Positions 40,908 through 48,522 of a stretch of 53,548 bases of DNA are shown piece by piece. Within the stretch, counting starts at the first letter, position 1, and each line of letters opens with the position of its first letter. Source of the DNA: Oscillatoriales cyanobacterium CG2_30_40_61 (lineage in GTDB: Bacteria > Cyanobacteriota > Cyanobacteriia > Cyanobacteriales > Microcoleaceae); contig MNYZ01000056.1 of assembly GCA_001873365.1 (NCBI GenBank), forward strand, positions 1-53,548. The letters run 5' to 3'. The notes beneath the pieces were generated by a model, which worked only from the letters and a program-made list of their open reading frames with translations, did not search any database and had not been told where the DNA came from. The translations under genes and the position numbers were made by a program.

Positions 40908-41164
40908 AGAAACCGGGTTTCTGCTGTAATCTTTGATCCTTAACAGAAATTTTGTTAAAGAACAAGAAACCGGGTTTCTGCTGTAATCTTTGATCCTTAA
41001 CAGAAATTTTGTAGAAACCCGGTTTCTGAGTAGAAACCGGGTTTCTGCTGTAATCTTTGATCCTTAACAGAAATTTTGTAGAAACCCGGTTTCTGAGTAG
41101 AAACCGGGTTTCTACTGTAATCTTTGATGCTTAATAGAAATTTTGTTAAAGAAACCCGGTTTCT
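40908..41164. repeat. Tandem 57-67 bp repeat containing AGAAACCGGGTTTCT palindrome
   Basis: Four units begin at 40908, 40965, 41032 and 41099. Each has AGAAACCGGGTTTCT, then CTGTAATCTTTGATCCTTAA and CAGAAATTTTGT. Units 3 and 4 also carry an extra inverted GTAGAAACCCGGTTTCTGA. The last unit runs into the stop codon of the DUF928 gene. The rest of the 440-bp gap before aspC shows nothing I can name. Confidence 0.9.
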
Positions 41165-41906
41165 AGGGTTGACAACAAGGACTTAAGGGTTCATTAGCTA
41201 AACTTTCTAACCCAATAGAATTTAATAACTCTTTCCACTCCTGTAAAATCTTTGGATCTTGAGGTTTTTCCTGCCGCAATACTGCTAATAAAGTTACGGT
41301 TTCATACCATAATCCGTTTTGAGCATAAACTTGAATTTGTTCTAGGGGTGTAGTAGCTTTTTCTAACTGACGAATTAAGGTTTCATTGGGGTTAATTCGG
41401 GCGATCGCCCCTTCAACCATATCATCCTCAGCCCGCAATCTGGGATTACACTGATAGAAAAATTGCCAACGATATTGTTTACCCACTTCTAACATCGGTG
41501 CAGATTGGGGTAACTTAAATTTGACGATTCCAGGGGTTCCCGTCAAAGGCATTTTCTGTTTAAATATTTGATTATCTTCTTCATCTAACAAAACAAATTC
41601 TACCTCTCTAGGGGGAGTTGAACTGTAGGGAACATAAATCATAAATGTGGGATATCCTGATAAGGTTAACCCTATATTATTTTCAGGAATTAATGCAGTT
41701 AAGGGTTGAGAAACCGCCGGACAATTGGTGCGACTGGATGAACCTTGACGATCTTCAGTGGTGGATTCATCCTGATCTGGAGGTTGAAATTCAACGGCGA
41801 CTTCTTGAGCAGATAAAGGGTGTTGGGCAACCCCAGATTTTGTTGGATTTAATGCCATTAAAATTCCGGCTAAAACAAATAATAAAAATAACTTTAGGTG
41901 CTTCAT
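41163..41906 (-). CDS. DUF928 domain protein, secreted
   Basis: The 247-residue protein begins with a signal peptide (HLKLFLLFVLAGILMALNP, cleaved near SGVAQ). The mature part has the DUF928 pattern ALIPENNIGLTLSGYPTFMI, YVPYSSTP, VEFVLLDEEDNQIFKQ and YRWQFFYQCNPRLR. It belongs to a cyanobacterial family of unknown function. It is the last gene of the sigma factor-DUF1822-CHAT/CHASE2 unit, and should act outside the inner membrane. The open frame extends far upstream into the CHASE2 gene on a wrong frame, so the ATG at the signal peptide is the true start. Confidence 0.85.
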   Translation of the reverse strand: MKHLKLFLLFVLAGILMALNPTKSGVAQHPLSAQEVAVEFQPPDQDESTTEDRQGSSSRTNCPAVSQPLTALIPENNIGLTLSGYPTFMIYVPYSSTPPREVEFVLLDEEDNQIFKQKMPLTGTPGIVKFKLPQSAPMLEVGKQYRWQFFYQCNPRLRAEDDMVEGAIARINPNETLIRQLEKATTPLEQIQVYAQNGLWYETVTLLAVLRQEKPQDPKILQEWKELLNSIGLESLANEPLSPCCQP

Positions 41907-42000
41907 GGATGAGAGTAAAATCCTGTATTTTTTAGTAATTGGTGGAATTGAATCTACCTTAATATCTTTATTGACCCACAATATAGGTTTTACGCAATTC

Positions 42001-44292
42001 TTATATTTTTTTATTAAACTGCGATCGCCACACCCAAAACCCCGCTCCCACCAACCCGAATAACGCTGGAACCAAAGGAACCCAAATCGCCGCCAAAAAC
42101 AACCCCCAAGACACCGCATACAAGACGGCGGCTGTGGTTGCCAAGGTGATTATAATTCCGCGATCGCTTATAAACATAGCTAAAACCCCCCCTAACAGCG
42201 TCCACAACCCGATCCAGAGTGCATCTGTCCATTTTGACCCGACTTTTAACAACGGACGATTATCTAAAACCGCAGACAGAATTTGACTAACCATTTGCGC
42301 CTGAATTATTAATCCTCGCACTTCGTGATCTGGGCTATAAGGAGTGCGATGACCTTCATCTTTAGCGCTGGTGGCATTAACACCGATTAAAACTAATTTA
42401 TCTTTAATTAGATTGGGATCAACTTCACCATTAAGAATTTGTGTAAACGTAACTTCCGGGGCAATGGGTTCTGATAATCGATAGTTTAGCATAATTTGAT
42501 ATCCTTTTCCATCGGATTTTGGATAAAATCCGATATCAGATTCCATCGGTTTTAAAATAATATTACCCAATTTAATTTGATCTGGCGGCAGGTTTTGGGG
42601 TTGAATTCCTTGTTGTTTTAAATAATCAAAGGCGAGTTGAATTGCTAAAGAACGTTCGGTTTGACATCCTTGAGAATTATTGATAAATAAAAGTTGACGG
42701 CGTAAAATTTGATCAGGATCGCGCATCACATCATTAAATCCAACTTGCAGACTTGGAGCATCGGGGGGAGCGGGCATACCGGAATCAGTTTTATCAGGTT
42801 TTTTACAAATTAAAAATAGATTATTTTGGGTTTGAAATTGATTAATTAAGCTTTGATATCCCGGTTCAACAGGCAGATCTCGATAAAGATTTAATCCAAT
42901 AGTTCGGGGTTTATATTCAGCAAGTTTTTGTAAAAATTCAGTAAGAATTTGATCGGGAACAGTCTGGTTTACGAAGGCTTTAATTTCTGCTTCTGTGATG
43001 GTGATTAATAATAAACGATTATCCTGTTTTTCGATAGGGCGCGATCGGATCATTTGATCATAAACTTTTAACTCCCAAAATTGTAACCATCCCCCCTGAC
43101 GAATTAAACAAACTAATAGAGTAATAGTTAAACTGATAAATCCGATTTTCTTAATTTCGTTAAATTTAAAATTTGGTAACTGATATATATTTTTACGACG
43201 TTTTAAATCTTGCCAACTGACAGAAACAATGGCTGGATTTTGACAAATTACGGGCAACCAACTGCCACAGGGAAAGCGATTTTCTAAGATGTATAATCTT
43301 TCCCTCGCTTGTCGCACTGCTAAATATAAAGATTGACCTTGAGAAAATGCTTGTAAAAAATGTTTTAAAAAAGTTTGGGCTACAACATCAGGCACAGGTT
43401 CGCGCATAACAATGGTTTGGGGAATATTTAATTGAGCAAGTTCCGTGGCTAAACCTAAACCATCACAGGAATTAAAAATAGCAATTTGTAACCCTTTTTC
43501 AATCGCTTTTCTAAAAGCAGGTAATAACGTTTTAATCGAGACTTTATCTTGATGATTAATTTTAAAAGTCCCTGATTTTTCCTGTTCTTGACTTTCACTA
43601 TGTCCGGCAAAAAAGAGAATATCCCAACCTTTTGAATCCCATAAAGCCCGATCTAGTTGCTGTTGACTAGGTTCGATTAAAAATACGGTTTCTGTCTGGG
43701 GTAAAGCGGTTAAAATCCTTTGATCTTCTGTAATATCAATTCCAGTTTTATTCCCTAAAATGGCTAAAATTCGGATTTTTGAACCCGGGACGGATAGGGA
43801 GGTTTTTCGAGTGTATTGGGGCTGACTCAGGGCTAATTCGGCGCGAGGATAATCGTGAAAAAAATGCCATAATTGCCAGGGTAAATGTCGGACTTTAAAA
43901 TCAGAGGTTTCTAAAATTATTTCAATTTCATCAGTCGGTTGTAACGCCGAACGTAACTGTTGATCAATGGTACGAAATTCTTCAAAATGAAGCCATTGAT
44001 TAAACTGATGAATATATTGGGTACAGATTTCCTGAAGTTCGACTTCAGAAACATGGGTAATATCTTCTTGTTCTAATTCAATCCGAGATGAAATACCTAA
44101 AGTGTGATAGAGTTCTTGATAAATAAACCGCCAACGTTGATAAAAGGTGATCAATTCTGGTGCAGCAGGTAAACAACCGATTATTTTTATCGGACGTGGA
44201 TTTTCTGAGTCCCATAATCGTGCTGTTACTAAAGGAAATCCTGCTGTTAATGAACCTTTTCCTAAATCAAGAATAACAAATTTTTCTGTCAT
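42001..44292 (-). CDS. CHAT-CHASE2 membrane protein
   Basis: The 763-residue protein joins a cytoplasmic caspase-like CHAT domain to a CHASE2 sensor. The CHAT part (about 130-360) has the catalytic pair in ILFFAGHSES (His231) and IAIFNSCDGLGLA (Cys276). A membrane helix at about 382-400 precedes the CHASE2 domain (starting FWELKVYDQMI), which contains LVLIGVNATSAKDEGHRTPY, and three hydrophobic helices close the protein. In most CHASE2 receptors the output domain is C-terminal; here it is N-terminal. I infer an extracytoplasmic sensor that controls a protease. It follows the DUF1822 gene by 93 bp. Confidence 0.85.
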   Translation of the reverse strand: MTEKFVILDLGKGSLTAGFPLVTARLWDSENPRPIKIIGCLPAAPELITFYQRWRFIYQELYHTLGISSRIELEQEDITHVSEVELQEICTQYIHQFNQWLHFEEFRTIDQQLRSALQPTDEIEIILETSDFKVRHLPWQLWHFFHDYPRAELALSQPQYTRKTSLSVPGSKIRILAILGNKTGIDITEDQRILTALPQTETVFLIEPSQQQLDRALWDSKGWDILFFAGHSESQEQEKSGTFKINHQDKVSIKTLLPAFRKAIEKGLQIAIFNSCDGLGLATELAQLNIPQTIVMREPVPDVVAQTFLKHFLQAFSQGQSLYLAVRQARERLYILENRFPCGSWLPVICQNPAIVSVSWQDLKRRKNIYQLPNFKFNEIKKIGFISLTITLLVCLIRQGGWLQFWELKVYDQMIRSRPIEKQDNRLLLITITEAEIKAFVNQTVPDQILTEFLQKLAEYKPRTIGLNLYRDLPVEPGYQSLINQFQTQNNLFLICKKPDKTDSGMPAPPDAPSLQVGFNDVMRDPDQILRRQLLFINNSQGCQTERSLAIQLAFDYLKQQGIQPQNLPPDQIKLGNIILKPMESDIGFYPKSDGKGYQIMLNYRLSEPIAPEVTFTQILNGEVDPNLIKDKLVLIGVNATSAKDEGHRTPYSPDHEVRGLIIQAQMVSQILSAVLDNRPLLKVGSKWTDALWIGLWTLLGGVLAMFISDRGIIITLATTAAVLYAVSWGLFLAAIWVPLVPALFGLVGAGFWVWRSQFNKKI

Positions 44293-44319
44293 ATTTTATT
44301 AAGTTGCGTAGAGACGCGC

Positions 44320-44353
44320 CATGTAGAGACGTTGCAGGCAACGTCTCTACATG
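44320..44353. repeat. Perfect 16-bp inverted repeat
   Basis: CATGTAGAGACGTTGC and GCAACGTCTCTACATG are perfectly inverted around AGG-like loop bases, between the DUF1822 and CHAT-CHASE2 genes. A related GTAGAGACGCG lies beside it. It may be an RNA hairpin within the operon. Confidence 0.85.
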
Positions 44354-44385
44354 GGAATATGTAGCAAACATTAAGGGATTTCATA

Positions 44386-45315
44386 TTAAAAAATAAATGT
44401 TTCTGTAATAGATGCCTCAGCCAAACGAACGGTAACACTAAATTGTTCTTCTGGCATTCCTCGGAATCGAGGTAGCTGCATATAATTATCCTGTAAACGG
44501 GATTGAACTTCTGATAAAATTGCACCTGTTTCTGATAATAAAATTAGTTGAATATTAGGAGGTAAATGGCGATCTTGGGGGGTAGGATATAACCGAACCC
44601 TAACCGCAATTCGTCCTTCTGTTTCTGGGGTTAATGCTACCCATAATACAACAGATTGACTCCCCAACTGCATTTTTAAATCAATTAATTTTGCCCCTTG
44701 AACAAACTCCTGATCACGGCCGGATAAACTTCTTAATCCTAAAGTGGGTTGGCGAGAAACCGACTGCCAAAATCCTGTCCATTCATCCATTAACCATAAA
44801 CTTAATCGCACAGGAATTGGAAATTCTAACCGTTGAGGTGAATTTAAGTGAACTAATAATTCTTCAATGGGTTGTAACTGTGCTAGGGGTAGGATTTCCT
44901 GAGTAATATTTTGGACAAAGCCTAAAATTTCTGCTGTTTTCAAGTTATCAAAAATTCGCACCACCACATATCCAATACGGTCAATTTGTACTTCTGGAGG
45001 AATGCTCACCATTTCTTGTCCTTCCCGCACCGGACGACATTCTAAACGTCCCACCCCGGTTATTTGCAAATCTGCCACATTTGCACAGAGTTGAATAATA
45101 GGATTCCAACTATCACTCGCCTTTAATTCCGTGGCAATTTGCATCCATTCTAAATAACAATTAACTCCCCAGACCGCTAAGGTATTGAGATAAACCTGTT
45201 CTCGCTTGCCTCCTTTGGGATGTTGTAAGGCAAATTTTGTAGCAATATCCCTGGCTTTCTGGGATATGATAATCGGTAAACTGTAATCTTCTAAATTAAA
45301 ACGTTGATTAATCAT
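44386..45315 (-). CDS. DUF1822 family protein
   Basis: The 309-residue protein is a cytoplasmic cyanobacterial DUF1822 member. Recognisable blocks are FALQHPKGGKREQVYLNTLA, VNCYLEWMQIATEL, VGYVVVRI and LQDNYMQLPRFRGMPEEQFS. No catalytic motif or membrane helix is visible. Its gene lies 52 bp after the sigma factor gene and before the CHAT-CHASE2 gene. Members of this family are usually next to such sigma factors, so a partner or inhibitor role is a fair guess. Confidence 0.85.
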   Translation of the reverse strand: MINQRFNLEDYSLPIIISQKARDIATKFALQHPKGGKREQVYLNTLAVWGVNCYLEWMQIATELKASDSWNPIIQLCANVADLQITGVGRLECRPVREGQEMVSIPPEVQIDRIGYVVVRIFDNLKTAEILGFVQNITQEILPLAQLQPIEELLVHLNSPQRLEFPIPVRLSLWLMDEWTGFWQSVSRQPTLGLRSLSGRDQEFVQGAKLIDLKMQLGSQSVVLWVALTPETEGRIAVRVRLYPTPQDRHLPPNIQLILLSETGAILSEVQSRLQDNYMQLPRFRGMPEEQFSVTVRLAEASITETFIF

Positions 45316-45367
45316 TTTTTTCCTCTTTTCTAACTTCTAATTCTTAATCCTTCTTTAGAAGCCTTAA

Positions 45368-46009
45368 CTATTCAAGATATCCCTGTGAGCGGGCAAAATT
45401 ACGCAAAAGCCCGCGACATTTTCGCTCATAAAAGCTACTTAAGGTACTGACGGCAACTCCCAACTCATGGGCTAGTTGTTCCCAGTTGGTTTCTGGAGGG
45501 AGGCGACTTAAAATTAACAATTGACAGGTGATGTCTGGACGTCCGCGAACGTGGGTGCTGCCCAACTCTCCAGTAGGATCGGTTTGTGCCCAGTGACGAA
45601 CTTCTTCTAACATCGGGGGAATATCGGGAGGTGCTTTTAATGTATCGATCAAATTAATATTTTCGTAGAGGGGAATATCAATAGAAATATAACGTTTTTG
45701 CTGTTGTTGCTGTTTTCGATAACAGTCTTTTAACCGTCCTTTTAAATAAACATTTAGCCAGGTTATTATACTAGCTCTGGCTGGGTCATACTGCGCCGCC
45801 GTCGTCGCTTCACAAAGATTTAGGTACAGAAAAGTCATGGTGTTTTGCCATGCGTCTTCGTAGTCTAGTGTGGACTCATGCCACAATTTACCGGATTTTT
45901 GAATGAGCCGAATAATTTGGGTAAAACCCTGACGACGTTCTACACTGGTGGGAGCGTGTTTGCAAGTTTCAGCAATTAATTGGCGCAGTTGTTCATCAAG
46001 TCCAGTCAT
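45368..46009 (-). CDS. Sigma-70 family (ECF-like) sigma factor
   Basis: The 213-residue protein has a region 2-like core (LDYEDAWQNTMTFLYLNL, then SIITWLNVYLKGRLKDCYRKQ) and a C-terminal helix-turn-helix of region 4 type (NWEQLAHELGVAVSTLSSFY, ERKCRGLLRNF). It is shorter than group 1 and 2 sigma factors and lacks regions 1 and 3. It heads the minus-strand unit and is divergent from the TPR-CHAT gene, with only about 100 bp between them. I infer that it drives one or both of these transcripts. Confidence 0.88.
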   Translation of the reverse strand: MTGLDEQLRQLIAETCKHAPTSVERRQGFTQIIRLIQKSGKLWHESTLDYEDAWQNTMTFLYLNLCEATTAAQYDPARASIITWLNVYLKGRLKDCYRKQQQQQKRYISIDIPLYENINLIDTLKAPPDIPPMLEEVRHWAQTDPTGELGSTHVRGRPDITCQLLILSRLPPETNWEQLAHELGVAVSTLSSFYERKCRGLLRNFARSQGYLE

Positions 46010-46110
46010 TTAGATTTTAGATTAACTTTGTTTTAATGAAATAGTAGGGTAAGTTCCAATATAAGTTAAAATTTTATCAAATAAAGTAGATATTTTTGAT
46101 TCTAAAGGTT

Positions 46111-48522
46111 ATGGGTTTTAATATTTCCCGTTGGGGTCTTTTTACAATTACAGTCTTAATGCAATTACAATGGGGCTTGATGATCCCTGTGGCATTCGCT
46201 CAGTCCCATGCTGAATTAGATCAGATGTATAATAGGGCATCAGAACAGATTGATCAAGGAAATTTCACCCAAGCTGTGATCACATTAGAGAAATTATTGG
46301 CGATCGCACAACAACAAAAAAATCAGTTTTTAGAAGCCACGGTTTTTAATAATTTAGCCCTAGTTTATCGGAATCAAGGTAATAATAATTTAGCCTTAGA
46401 AACCGCTACCACAGCCTTAAAAATTTATCAACAATTAAACGATGATGCAGGTATTAGTGTAGCTTTAAATAATCAAGCCACTGCTTATCTGAGTTTAGGT
46501 CAATATCCCCAGGCAATTCAAGGGTTTGAACAATCTTTAAAATTAGTTCGGAAACTGGGCGAAAAGTCGGGAGAAGTTAATATTTTATCTAATTTAGGAG
46601 CGATTTATAGAACTTTAGGACAACATCAAAACTCCTTATCTTACTTTCAACAAGCCTTAACTATTATTAAAACCCTAGATGATAGCCGGACGGAAGGAAT
46701 TATTTTCAATAATATCGGTACGGCTTATATTTCTTTAGGCGAATATGAACAAGCAAAAATTGCCTTTGAGCAATCTTTAAAATTAGCAAAAAAATCACAG
46801 GATGCTCAAGGTATTGGTCAAGCTATAATTAATTTAGGGGGAGTTTATGAACGCTTTCAAGAGTATGATCAAGCCTTAAATTTATATCAAGAAGGCTTAC
46901 CGATAATGGAAAAAGTCGGAGATTTAGAAGCGGTTGGGCAAGCATTGAATAATATCGGTTATATTTATCGCCTCCAAAATCAATATCCTCAAGCTTTTGA
47001 GTTCTATAAAAAAGCCTTAGAAGTTCGCCAAAATATCCAAGATAAACGGGGAGAAGCGGTAACATTAATTAATTTAGGTGTGGCTGAGTTTGCAGTTGGA
47101 AAACTTGCCCAAGCCAATCAAAATCTCTATTCTGCAATTAAAATTTTTGAGTCTTTACGTCCTGGGTTAAGTGATCAGAATAAAGTCTCTTTCTTGGAAA
47201 CTTTTTCAAAAAGTTATGGGGTTTTACAACAGGTATTAATTGAGCAAAAACAAATTGAGAAAGCGTTAGAAGTTGCCGAACGCGGCAGAGCTAGAGCGTT
47301 TGTTGAGTTGGTAGCTCAAAATAATATATCACCGGAAAAATTAACTAAAATTTCCGTAAAACCACCCAACTTTTCGGATATTCAAAAAGTTGCTAAAACA
47401 CAAAATGCCACATTAGTTGAATATTCAGTTATTGCTGATCAATTTAAGCAAAATTCTACCCTGTTAATTTGGGTAATTAAACCCGATGGTAACGTGCAGT
47501 TTCGGTCTGTTGATTTAACGAATTTAAAGACAGATAATCTTGTTCCTATGTTAAGTACAGAAGAACTGCCACCAACACCTCCCCTAAATAAGCTAATTCG
47601 GGGAACTCGTGTTAGTTTAGAATCAGGGATTTCAGGGCTAATAGCAAATGATGTTACCAATAAACAATTAAATAAACTGTATCAACTTTTAATTGAACCC
47701 ATTGCGGATTTATTACCTAAAAATCCTCAAGATCGAATTATTTTTATTCCCCATCAAGACCTATTATTAGTTCCTTTTCCGGCCTTAGTTGATCAACAGG
47801 GAAATTATCTAATTCAAAACCATACTATTTTAACTTCTCCATCAATTCAACTATTACAATTAACCGCCGAGCAACAAAAACAACAGCCAAGAAATGGGGT
47901 AAAAACTGCTTTAGTTGTGGGTAATCCTAAGATGCCTAAAGTAGCTTTATTACCCGGAGAAGAACCTAAACTTTTACAACCACTTCCAGCCAGTGAAAAA
48001 GAAGCGATCGCCATTGCTAAAATTCTGCAAACCGAACCGTTATTAGGTGAAATAGCAACGGAATCTAAGGTAATTCAACTAATAGAAAATGCCCGTTATA
48101 TTCATCTAGCCACTCACGGAATTTTGAGTGATTTAACTGAGTCTGGAATTCCAGGGGCGATCGCCCTTTCCCCCTCTGGCTCCGATGATGGTTTACTCAC
48201 CTCCGAGGAAATTCTCCAGTTAAATTTAACGGCTGATTTAGTAGTATTAAGTGCTTGTAATACGGGAGCAGGAAGCATTACCAGCGATGGAATTTTAGGG
48301 TTATCTCGTTCCTTAATAGCTGCTGGTGTTCCCAGTTTAATTGTATCTCTGTGGAAAGTGGACGATACTCCCACCTTGGAATTGATGCAAACATTTTATC
48401 AGCAACTCCAACAAACCGATGATCAAGCCCAAGCCTTGCGCCAAGCAATGTTAATCACGATGAAAAATTATCCTAAACCTGAACATTGGGCGGGTTTTAT
48501 TATCATCGGCCAAGCTAATTGA
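46111..48522 (+). CDS. TPR-CHAT caspase-like protein, exported
   Basis: The 803-residue protein starts with a signal peptide (hydrophobic about 10-28, cleavage near AFA-QS at 30). Next come about eight tetratricopeptide repeats (40-345) of the form LNNLGxxYxxLGQYxQAxxxFEQSL. A linker and a C-terminal CHAT domain follow, with IHLATHGILSD (His669) and LVVLSACNTGAG (Cys716). CHAT proteins are caspase relatives; TPR-CHAT proteins include the protease partner of type III-E CRISPR. This one appears to act in the periplasm. It is divergent from the sigma factor operon. ATG is preferred over a TTG five codons upstream. Confidence 0.9.
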   Translation: MGFNISRWGLFTITVLMQLQWGLMIPVAFAQSHAELDQMYNRASEQIDQGNFTQAVITLEKLLAIAQQQKNQFLEATVFNNLALVYRNQGNNNLALETATTALKIYQQLNDDAGISVALNNQATAYLSLGQYPQAIQGFEQSLKLVRKLGEKSGEVNILSNLGAIYRTLGQHQNSLSYFQQALTIIKTLDDSRTEGIIFNNIGTAYISLGEYEQAKIAFEQSLKLAKKSQDAQGIGQAIINLGGVYERFQEYDQALNLYQEGLPIMEKVGDLEAVGQALNNIGYIYRLQNQYPQAFEFYKKALEVRQNIQDKRGEAVTLINLGVAEFAVGKLAQANQNLYSAIKIFESLRPGLSDQNKVSFLETFSKSYGVLQQVLIEQKQIEKALEVAERGRARAFVELVAQNNISPEKLTKISVKPPNFSDIQKVAKTQNATLVEYSVIADQFKQNSTLLIWVIKPDGNVQFRSVDLTNLKTDNLVPMLSTEELPPTPPLNKLIRGTRVSLESGISGLIANDVTNKQLNKLYQLLIEPIADLLPKNPQDRIIFIPHQDLLLVPFPALVDQQGNYLIQNHTILTSPSIQLLQLTAEQQKQQPRNGVKTALVVGNPKMPKVALLPGEEPKLLQPLPASEKEAIAIAKILQTEPLLGEIATESKVIQLIENARYIHLATHGILSDLTESGIPGAIALSPSGSDDGLLTSEEILQLNLTADLVVLSACNTGAGSITSDGILGLSRSLIAAGVPSLIVSLWKVDDTPTLELMQTFYQQLQQTDDQAQALRQAMLITMKNYPKPEHWAGFIIIGQAN

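Follow-up and report, generated by a model that had tools for sequence, protein, structure and literature searches.

The closest described relatives of the system considered here are the EACC2-caspase proteins, the subject of a 2021 eLife paper by Kaur et al. These proteins are reported to have an N-terminal alpha+beta domain, a caspase domain and a variable C-terminus, and in most cases that are independent of TRADD-N their neighbours encode an extracytoplasmic function (ECF) sigma factor and a DUF1822 protein (PMC8195603). The same work proposes that the caspase is activated as an autopeptidase, with the sigma factor and transcription as a possible last step, and, for the TRADD-N-linked group, lists CHASE2 among the C-terminal domains (PMC8195603). 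The window analysed here, by which we mean the whole 53,548-nucleotide stretch of contig MNYZ01000056.1 from Oscillatoriales cyanobacterium CG2_30_40_61, contains a five-gene locus that shares with this system the caspase architecture, the His and Cys residues, the variable C-terminus and both neighbours. In the available text of that paper DUF928 has 0 occurrences and no exported TPR-CHAT protein is seen, whereas the window has both. The inner half of the system (EACC2-caspase, ECF sigma factor and DUF1822) is therefore already predicted in print (PMC8195603); what is new here is the outer half, made up of DUF928 and TPR-CHAT, and its tie to the CHASE2 receptor type. No literature joining DUF928, CHASE2 and TPR-CHAT to the EACC2, sigma and DUF1822 system was found in a search that left most subscription journals outside its reach. 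We propose that the locus is a transmembrane signalling operon in which the neighbouring ECF sigma factor is controlled through DUF1822, the target of a CHASE2 receptor-protease, a reading to which we assign a probability of roughly 45%.

Several other systems invite comparison. The initial annotation of the window argued by analogy with type III-E CRISPR, in which a TPR-CHAT protease frees a sigma factor from its inhibitor by cleavage, and this analogy holds in part. The predicted model of the window membrane protein matches Csx29 structures of the type III-E CASP system (Csx29/Csx30/CASP-sigma), although the window protease is membrane-bound and carries a CHASE2 sensor. Neither CHAT protein passes the Csx29 family model (NCBIfam NF041237; TPR-CHAT scores 19.5 bits against a cut-off of 300 and the membrane CHAT has no match). 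Cas7-11 (gRAMP) is much larger than 872 residues, and the window has no open reading frame of that size, its largest (872 residues) encoding an M1 peptidase; CRISPR arrays were not part of this search. The middle protein of type III-E, Csx30, is predicted to consist of two linked domains, the C-terminal one being cut within a small loop (PMC10028731), and DUF1822 resembles it in outline only, with no fold match detected. The membrane model also has a Foldseek match (E 1e-5) to the transmembrane anti-sigma factor DdvA (PDB 8rot and 8rw5), probably through its CHASE2 and transmembrane part. DdvA presumably comes from Myxococcus xanthus and, judging by its name, we assume that it carries the anti-sigma part on the membrane protein itself; in the window the cytoplasmic part is instead a protease and DUF1822 is separate. 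When the PDB was searched with the CHASE2 sequence to back the DdvA match, nothing was found, and domain scans of the membrane protein for an anti-sigma family gave no match, its N-terminal part being EACC2-CHAT. HetF, a CHAT-type caspase, is a further cyanobacterial protein thought to restrict a regulator by degradation. It could degrade PatU3 (PMC12288457); the NCBIfam HetF model gives only a trace match here (E 0.005, 15.2 bits against a cut-off of 1200). A single sequence from Trichodesmium erythraeum, described in PLoS One in 2012, joins a caspase fold to CHASE2 with a predicted topology identical to that of the window protein; it is termed a metacaspase, and no sigma/DUF1822 operon is seen in the available text of that study (PMC3501461).

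The window belongs to a 4.8-Mb genome of 119 contigs from a Planktothrix-like cyanobacterium, and the five genes occupy positions 41163-48522, where the initial annotation had located them; open reading frame positions and domain matches confirm four minus-strand genes and a divergent TPR-CHAT gene. The minus-strand unit encodes a short-class ECF-type sigma factor of 213 residues (45368-46009), a DUF1822 protein of 309 residues (44386-45315; PF08852, 7.8e-74), an EACC2-CHAT-CHASE2 membrane protein of 763 residues (42001-44292; CHAT 7.4e-15, CHASE2 6e-59) and a DUF928 protein with an N-terminal signal peptide (41163-41906; 5.7e-64). The intergenic gaps are 52, 93 and 94 bp when the DUF928 start is taken as ATG 41906, the start that gives rise to its signal peptide; the DUF928 open frame as a whole (41163-42119) overlaps the CHAT gene at its 42119 start. 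On the plus strand, the TPR-CHAT gene (46096-48522; CHAT 2e-70, with TPR) encodes a signal peptide and starts at TTG 46096 or ATG 46111. Its catalytic pair is His669/Cys716 from ATG 46111, as originally numbered, or His674/Cys721 from TTG 46096. The nearest named relative found, Planktothrix sp. PCC 11201 (L186), shows 92% identity over EACC2-CHAT and an identical five-gene order.

The predicted model of the membrane protein, with a mean predicted local distance difference test (pLDDT) score of 85.5, comprises an N-terminal alpha/beta part, the CHAT domain, a transmembrane helix at residues 377-399, CHASE2 and three terminal transmembrane helices. Domain limits read by eye from the model place EACC2-like residues at about 1-118 and CHAT at about 119-355 (43228-43938, minus strand), with the transmembrane helix, CHASE2 sensor and C-terminal helices encoded at 42004-43170 on the same strand; the EACC2 identity of the N-terminus was assigned from architecture and from the model and fold match. 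Because the N-terminus, again judged by eye, has no signal peptide, the simplest topology puts CHAT in the cytoplasm and CHASE2 in the periplasm, which agrees with the membrane CHAT and CHASE2 sensor originally proposed. Foldseek matches at E<=0.001 include separase, a SAVED-CHAT filament, Csx29 complexes, ciliary central-apparatus entries and DdvA. The His231/Cys276 pair, whose numbering proved correct, is kept in 114/114 EACC2-CHAT-CHASE2 proteins with the window counted and duplicates between samples retained, and this full conservation fits a working membrane protease. The C-terminal region of EACC2-CHAT proteins varies, with CHASE2 in the window and none in a second copy in the same genome.

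These features suggest a path from outside to inside. The exported TPR-CHAT and DUF928 proteins may work in the periplasm with the CHASE2 sensor, in a presumed order of outer steps; CHASE2 would relay the signal through the membrane to the cytoplasmic EACC2-CHAT, which would act on DUF1822, the putative dedicated partner of the ECF sigma factor, and so alter sigma activity. Most likely EACC2-CHAT would cut or displace DUF1822 as an anti-sigma factor, freeing sigma. We infer that DUF1822 binds the sigma factor, that it inhibits rather than activates, that it is cleaved, and that a ligand and a regulon stand at the two ends. The computed support comprises gene order, co-occurrence, intact dyads, predicted folds, the link between DUF928 and CHASE2, and a CHAT-linked clade of DUF1822. 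If the proposal is true, caspase-fold proteases would be everyday cyanobacterial converters from membrane receptor to transcription outside CRISPR, DUF928 and DUF1822 (families scarce in the searched literature) would gain a testable role, and an interchangeable sensory cassette would precede cyclases, kinases and sigma factors.

The conservation of the set was surveyed across genomes. Of 388 genomes of the class, 244 have DUF1822 and 286 have DUF928; EACC2-CHAT occurs in 161 of 242. Neighbourhoods were compared in a named sample of 80 loci selected by similarity to an EACC2-CHAT alignment and in samples centred on EACC2 (20 loci), DUF1822 and DUF928, each of the latter three consisting of the best-scoring loci among the matches listed. 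Loci lacking neighbours at contig ends were dropped and denominators vary accordingly; frameshifted CHASE2 genes (L084, L105) were scored as lacking CHASE2; and unnamed and named samples overlap in some genomes, with near-duplicates included in dyad and tree counts. In the named sample, for EACC2-CHAT genes with CHASE2 (n=72), DUF1822 lies no more than two genes upstream in 62/71, a sigma factor is within four genes in 59/71, DUF928 is within three genes downstream in 45/63 and TPR-CHAT is within six genes in 29/47, and the corresponding counts for those without CHASE2 (n=17) are 10/16, 11/16, 2/16 and 6/10. The EACC2-centred sample gives, in the same order, 10/12, 10/12, 10/11 and 0/4 with CHASE2, and 10/11, 7/11, 0/9 (within three genes) and 1/6 without. 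Among 113 EACC2-CHAT-CHASE2 proteins with 650 or more residues, contig-end loci and a few duplicates included, 64 are accompanied by sigma, DUF1822 and DUF928, and 42 of these also by TPR-CHAT. The order of the genes recurs across named and unnamed samples, no point in favour of a chance neighbourhood was found, and we regard that explanation as negligible.

Within the set, sigma and DUF1822 form a smaller core, since around DUF1822 the sigma gene lies directly upstream in 45/57 loci, but just 29/56 have EACC2 no more than two genes further on. In two loci (L113, L115) TPR-CHAT sits between the sigma and DUF1822 genes and shares their strand, so that there the unit runs in one direction. Other arrangements were also observed: in L110 two DUF1822/EACC2-CHAT-CHASE2/DUF928 sets stand head to head about a single sigma gene, and in L064 and L080 sigma and DUF1822 are followed by a protein of about 1660-1680 residues (nSTAND-WD40 by scan in L064) and then DUF928, with no CHASE2.

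The sigma gene product of the window is best read as an ECF-type sigma factor, because the two top PDB matches of a profile built from 16 relatives are RpoE (2q1z, E 0.002) and SigK (4nqw, E 0.003). By single-sequence search it reaches the NCBIfam sigma-70 family model TIGR02937 at E=9.6e-4, below the model cut-off, and a Pfam scan of the protein gave no sigma family match. Many DUF1822 partners are larger, about 400 residues, and have regions 2 and 4 separated by a long insert; upstream genes in L069, L079, L097 and L065 are examples, with TIGR02937 matches of 1e-27 to 1e-31. Genes upstream of DUF1822 were the source of the model for this long class, so counts that use that model are partly circular. 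Taken individually, 39/45 adjacent upstream genes in the DUF1822-centred sample and 49/67 in the named sample match TIGR02937 at E<=0.001, the remaining upstream sigma calls depending on our own models. SigJ was set aside as the identity of the long sigma because sigJ appears to be monocistronic in Nostoc punctiforme, as far as the available text indicates (PMC6495340).

Whether DUF1822 is an anti-sigma factor cut by CHAT or a positive partner of sigma bears directly on the proposal. Its AlphaFold2 model (pLDDT 87.7) has an N-terminal alpha/beta domain and a C-terminal beta-sandwich, and no TPR was matched at E<=0.1; the statement that DUF1822 is a TPR protein, made in the available text of PMC8195603, is not supported by this predicted fold. 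In a tree of 143 tips, 119 CHAT-linked and 24 EACC2-less proteins are split by one change (proteins shorter than 250 or 290 residues and four ambiguous DUF1822 were dropped from the DUF1822 comparisons). The CHAT-linked proteins are one clade with its own C-domain signature: Gln280, Leu281 and Phe292 occur jointly in 114/119 of them and 0/24 of the EACC2-less, Phe284 in 115 and 0, and Asp276 in 112 and 0. Among long forms the EACC2-less clade has 40 conserved columns of its own, and the signature is therefore a clade difference. Residues 273-294 (44434-44499, minus strand), a segment like RxxDNYIQLxxFxGxxxExFS, mark the CHAT-linked clade and are the best candidate for contact with CHAT, where docking or cleavage might occur. 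No CHAT cleavage site could be named from the alignments of 119 CHAT-linked and 24 EACC2-less proteins. R195, in a less ordered linker, was considered as a cleavage site and rejected; kept in 117/119 CHAT-linked and 21/24 EACC2-less proteins, it is common to both clades and thus not CHAT-specific.

The alternative that survives best casts DUF1822 as an adaptor or positive partner of sigma, and supposes that EACC2-CHAT docks, or cuts itself or another target, with no anti-sigma cleavage. The autopeptidase activation proposed in the available text of the eLife 2021 paper (PMC8195603) would suit it, as would the DUF1822 model, which matches no PDB fold at E<=0.001 and so gives no sign of resembling Csx30 or any known anti-sigma factor. 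It also gains from DUF1822 proteins that have no EACC2-CHAT within six genes (24/147 pooled, all 24 from the DUF1822-centred sample), 21/24 of which have a sigma gene directly upstream. The private C-domain signature fits a direct relation between CHAT and DUF1822, although docking alone would explain it too, and we consider this alternative somewhat doubtful. The EACC2-less DUF1822 form a separate clade (24 in all, for example L061, L072, L085, L108, L164 and L165), and one of them, in L065, is adjoined by TPR-CHAT. Because they exist, any control by CHAT does not extend to every DUF1822. The original interpretation is supported in part, as to the conserved set, the dyads, the topology and the Csx29 resemblance, and its core idea was already in print.

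The outer half of the locus is tied to the receptor. DUF928 lies within two genes downstream of 36/41 EACC2-CHATs with CHASE2 and 0/20 without, in pooled and partly conditioned samples. A CHASE2-centred set of 40 hand-picked places among the matches listed, EACC2 loci excluded, was also compared: among 41 CHASE2 proteins without EACC2, DUF928 is found within two genes of 19 and TPR-CHAT within five genes of 10, DUF928 standing beside 11/17 cyclases, 2/2 histidine kinases, 1/7 Ser/Thr kinases and 5/15 others. DUF928, sometimes with TPR-CHAT, tracks the CHASE2 receptor and is seldom found after EACC2-CHATs that lack CHASE2. The host genome itself has two CHASE2-cyclase loci that carry DUF928 and CHAT without DUF1822, and in Nostoc punctiforme CHASE2 and DUF928 adjoin WD40 genes, according to the available text of PMC5587647. 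A single change divides the CHASE2 domains of EACC2 proteins from those of cyclases, and three changes divide their DUF928s; frequent swapping of outputs was dismissed, these few changes pointing to rare swaps. The exported-type CHAT dyad is kept in 78/83 TPR-CHAT-model proteins (4 gaps, 1 changed). A crude signal-peptide rule is positive for 135/138 DUF928 relatives and 58/82 TPR-CHAT proteins, and is weak because it also flags 26/156 DUF1822 and 51/152 EACC2 proteins. Export of both DUF928 and TPR-CHAT is apparent, and, as an amendment to the original interpretation, DUF928 belongs to the CHASE2 side and also occurs beside CHASE2-cyclases without DUF1822. A fuller version of the proposal is a two-compartment relay: exported CHAT and DUF928 would prime or gate periplasmic CHASE2, cytoplasmic CHAT would cut DUF1822, and TPR-CHAT, DUF928 and CHASE2 would be a standard cyanobacterial cassette for sigma/DUF1822, cyclase or histidine-kinase outputs. 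In this complete form it is unlikely.

The same export could instead mean that DUF928 and TPR-CHAT are outputs of the sigma regulon that remodel the surface, not inputs to CHASE2. The commonest other neighbour cluster of EACC2-CHASE2 genes (53 genes at 42 loci, for example L092:11638-14265) would agree with such outputs, its one scanned member being a TPS secretion-domain protein of filamentous-haemagglutinin type. However, DUF928, often with TPR-CHAT, stands beside CHASE2-cyclases and histidine kinases that have no DUF1822 in the neighbourhoods examined, and a conserved promoter motif, sought upstream of the sigma and TPR-CHAT genes, was not found; we hold this explanation to be quite improbable. 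Still less probable is a stress-triggered self-killing or defence module with the CHAT proteases as effectors. CHAT and caspase domains are known from such systems, and EACC2 is set in a context of apoptosis and immunity in the available text of the eLife 2021 paper (PMC8195603). Against this, the PADLOC matches of TPR-CHAT are limited to TPR-type models and a single weak oxidoreductase label, the other four proteins have none, the locus sits among aminotransferase, M1 peptidase and four-region sigma-70 genes, and the predicted endpoint of the unit is a sigma factor.

Co-divergence was assessed by partial rank correlations of distances over 62 operons (64 before identical operons were removed), with bootstraps drawn over related operons, so that phylogeny remains in the values. 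The correlations are 0.79 [0.71, 0.83] for sigma-DUF1822, 0.46 for CHAT-CHASE2, 0.37 [0.14, 0.54] for CHASE2-DUF928, 0.23 for EACC2-CHAT, 0.22 [0.09, 0.34] for DUF1822-EACC2 and -0.06 for DUF1822-CHAT; in the 40 operons with TPR-CHAT, CHASE2-TPR-CHAT reaches 0.33 [0.10, 0.56]. The pattern looks like a chain from the outside to sigma, but a fragile one. With long sigmas only (n=33), CHASE2-DUF928 (0.57) and EACC2-CHAT (0.38) hold up. Short sigma is paired with short DUF1822 in 30/34 cases and long sigma with short DUF1822 in 6/98, a pairing due to shared descent; coevolution of the sigma and DUF1822 inserts was rejected, as on a 120-tip DUF1822 tree sigma type changes 2 times and DUF1822 length 5 times, never on one branch (a separate count with unknown sigmas scored as long gave 9 and 6 changes). 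Phylogeny-proof sigma-DUF1822 coevolution, sought in the 62 operons and the DUF1822 trees, was not found.

Several results weigh against the proposed receptor-protease operon. The long-sigma subset lowers sigma-DUF1822 to 0.18 [-0.15, 0.55] and gives 0.45 for sigma-EACC2 and 0.31 for DUF1822-CHAT; in the operons with TPR-CHAT, CHASE2-DUF928 falls to 0.20 [-0.02, 0.38]; and DUF1822-DUF928 reaches 0.21 despite no expected contact. The contrast between CHAT-linked and EACC2-less DUF1822 depends on a single evolutionary event. The 273-294 segment has block means of 94-96 in the model, a degree of order that a cleavage loop would not usually show, and its basic residues are missing from some sequences. 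The missing PDB fold match of DUF1822 and the missing promoter motif count here as well. TPR-CHAT is not CHASE2-specific in the named sample (29/47 with, 6/10 without), and 26/47 DUF928-centred genes have no CHASE2 within two genes, contrary to strict pairing.

A candidate autoregulatory ECF promoter was discarded: in place of the window GGAACTT, the closest relatives compared have GGTACTT (L157) and GGGACTC (L186). GGAACTT is nominally commoner upstream of short sigma genes (4/45, against 1.2% of 1624 other genes), the four sites lying at scattered positions, two of them respectively next to and beyond the start codon, and upstream of TPR-CHAT genes it occurs in 0/72. Flanking genes that were scanned encode an aminotransferase, an FAD oxidoreductase, the M1 peptidase and a sigma-70 factor with regions 1.2 to 4. 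The host genome also carries another such system (L056, contig 20), which consists of a sigma-like protein of 219 residues, a DUF1822 of 413 residues, an open reading frame of 163 residues and a 1071-residue protein with CHAT, in which pentapeptide repeats are placed ahead of CHAT and CHASE2 is absent. Within the 93-bp gap between DUF1822 and CHAT-CHASE2 lies a palindrome, GTAGAGACGTTGCNNGCAACGTCTCTAC (44323-44350), that resembles a dispersed repeat. Directly 3' of DUF928, a tandem array of AGAAACCSGGTTTCT hairpins with a period of 67 (40908-41164) may mark the end of the transcription unit, its palindromic units scoring as terminator-like hairpins on the plus strand.

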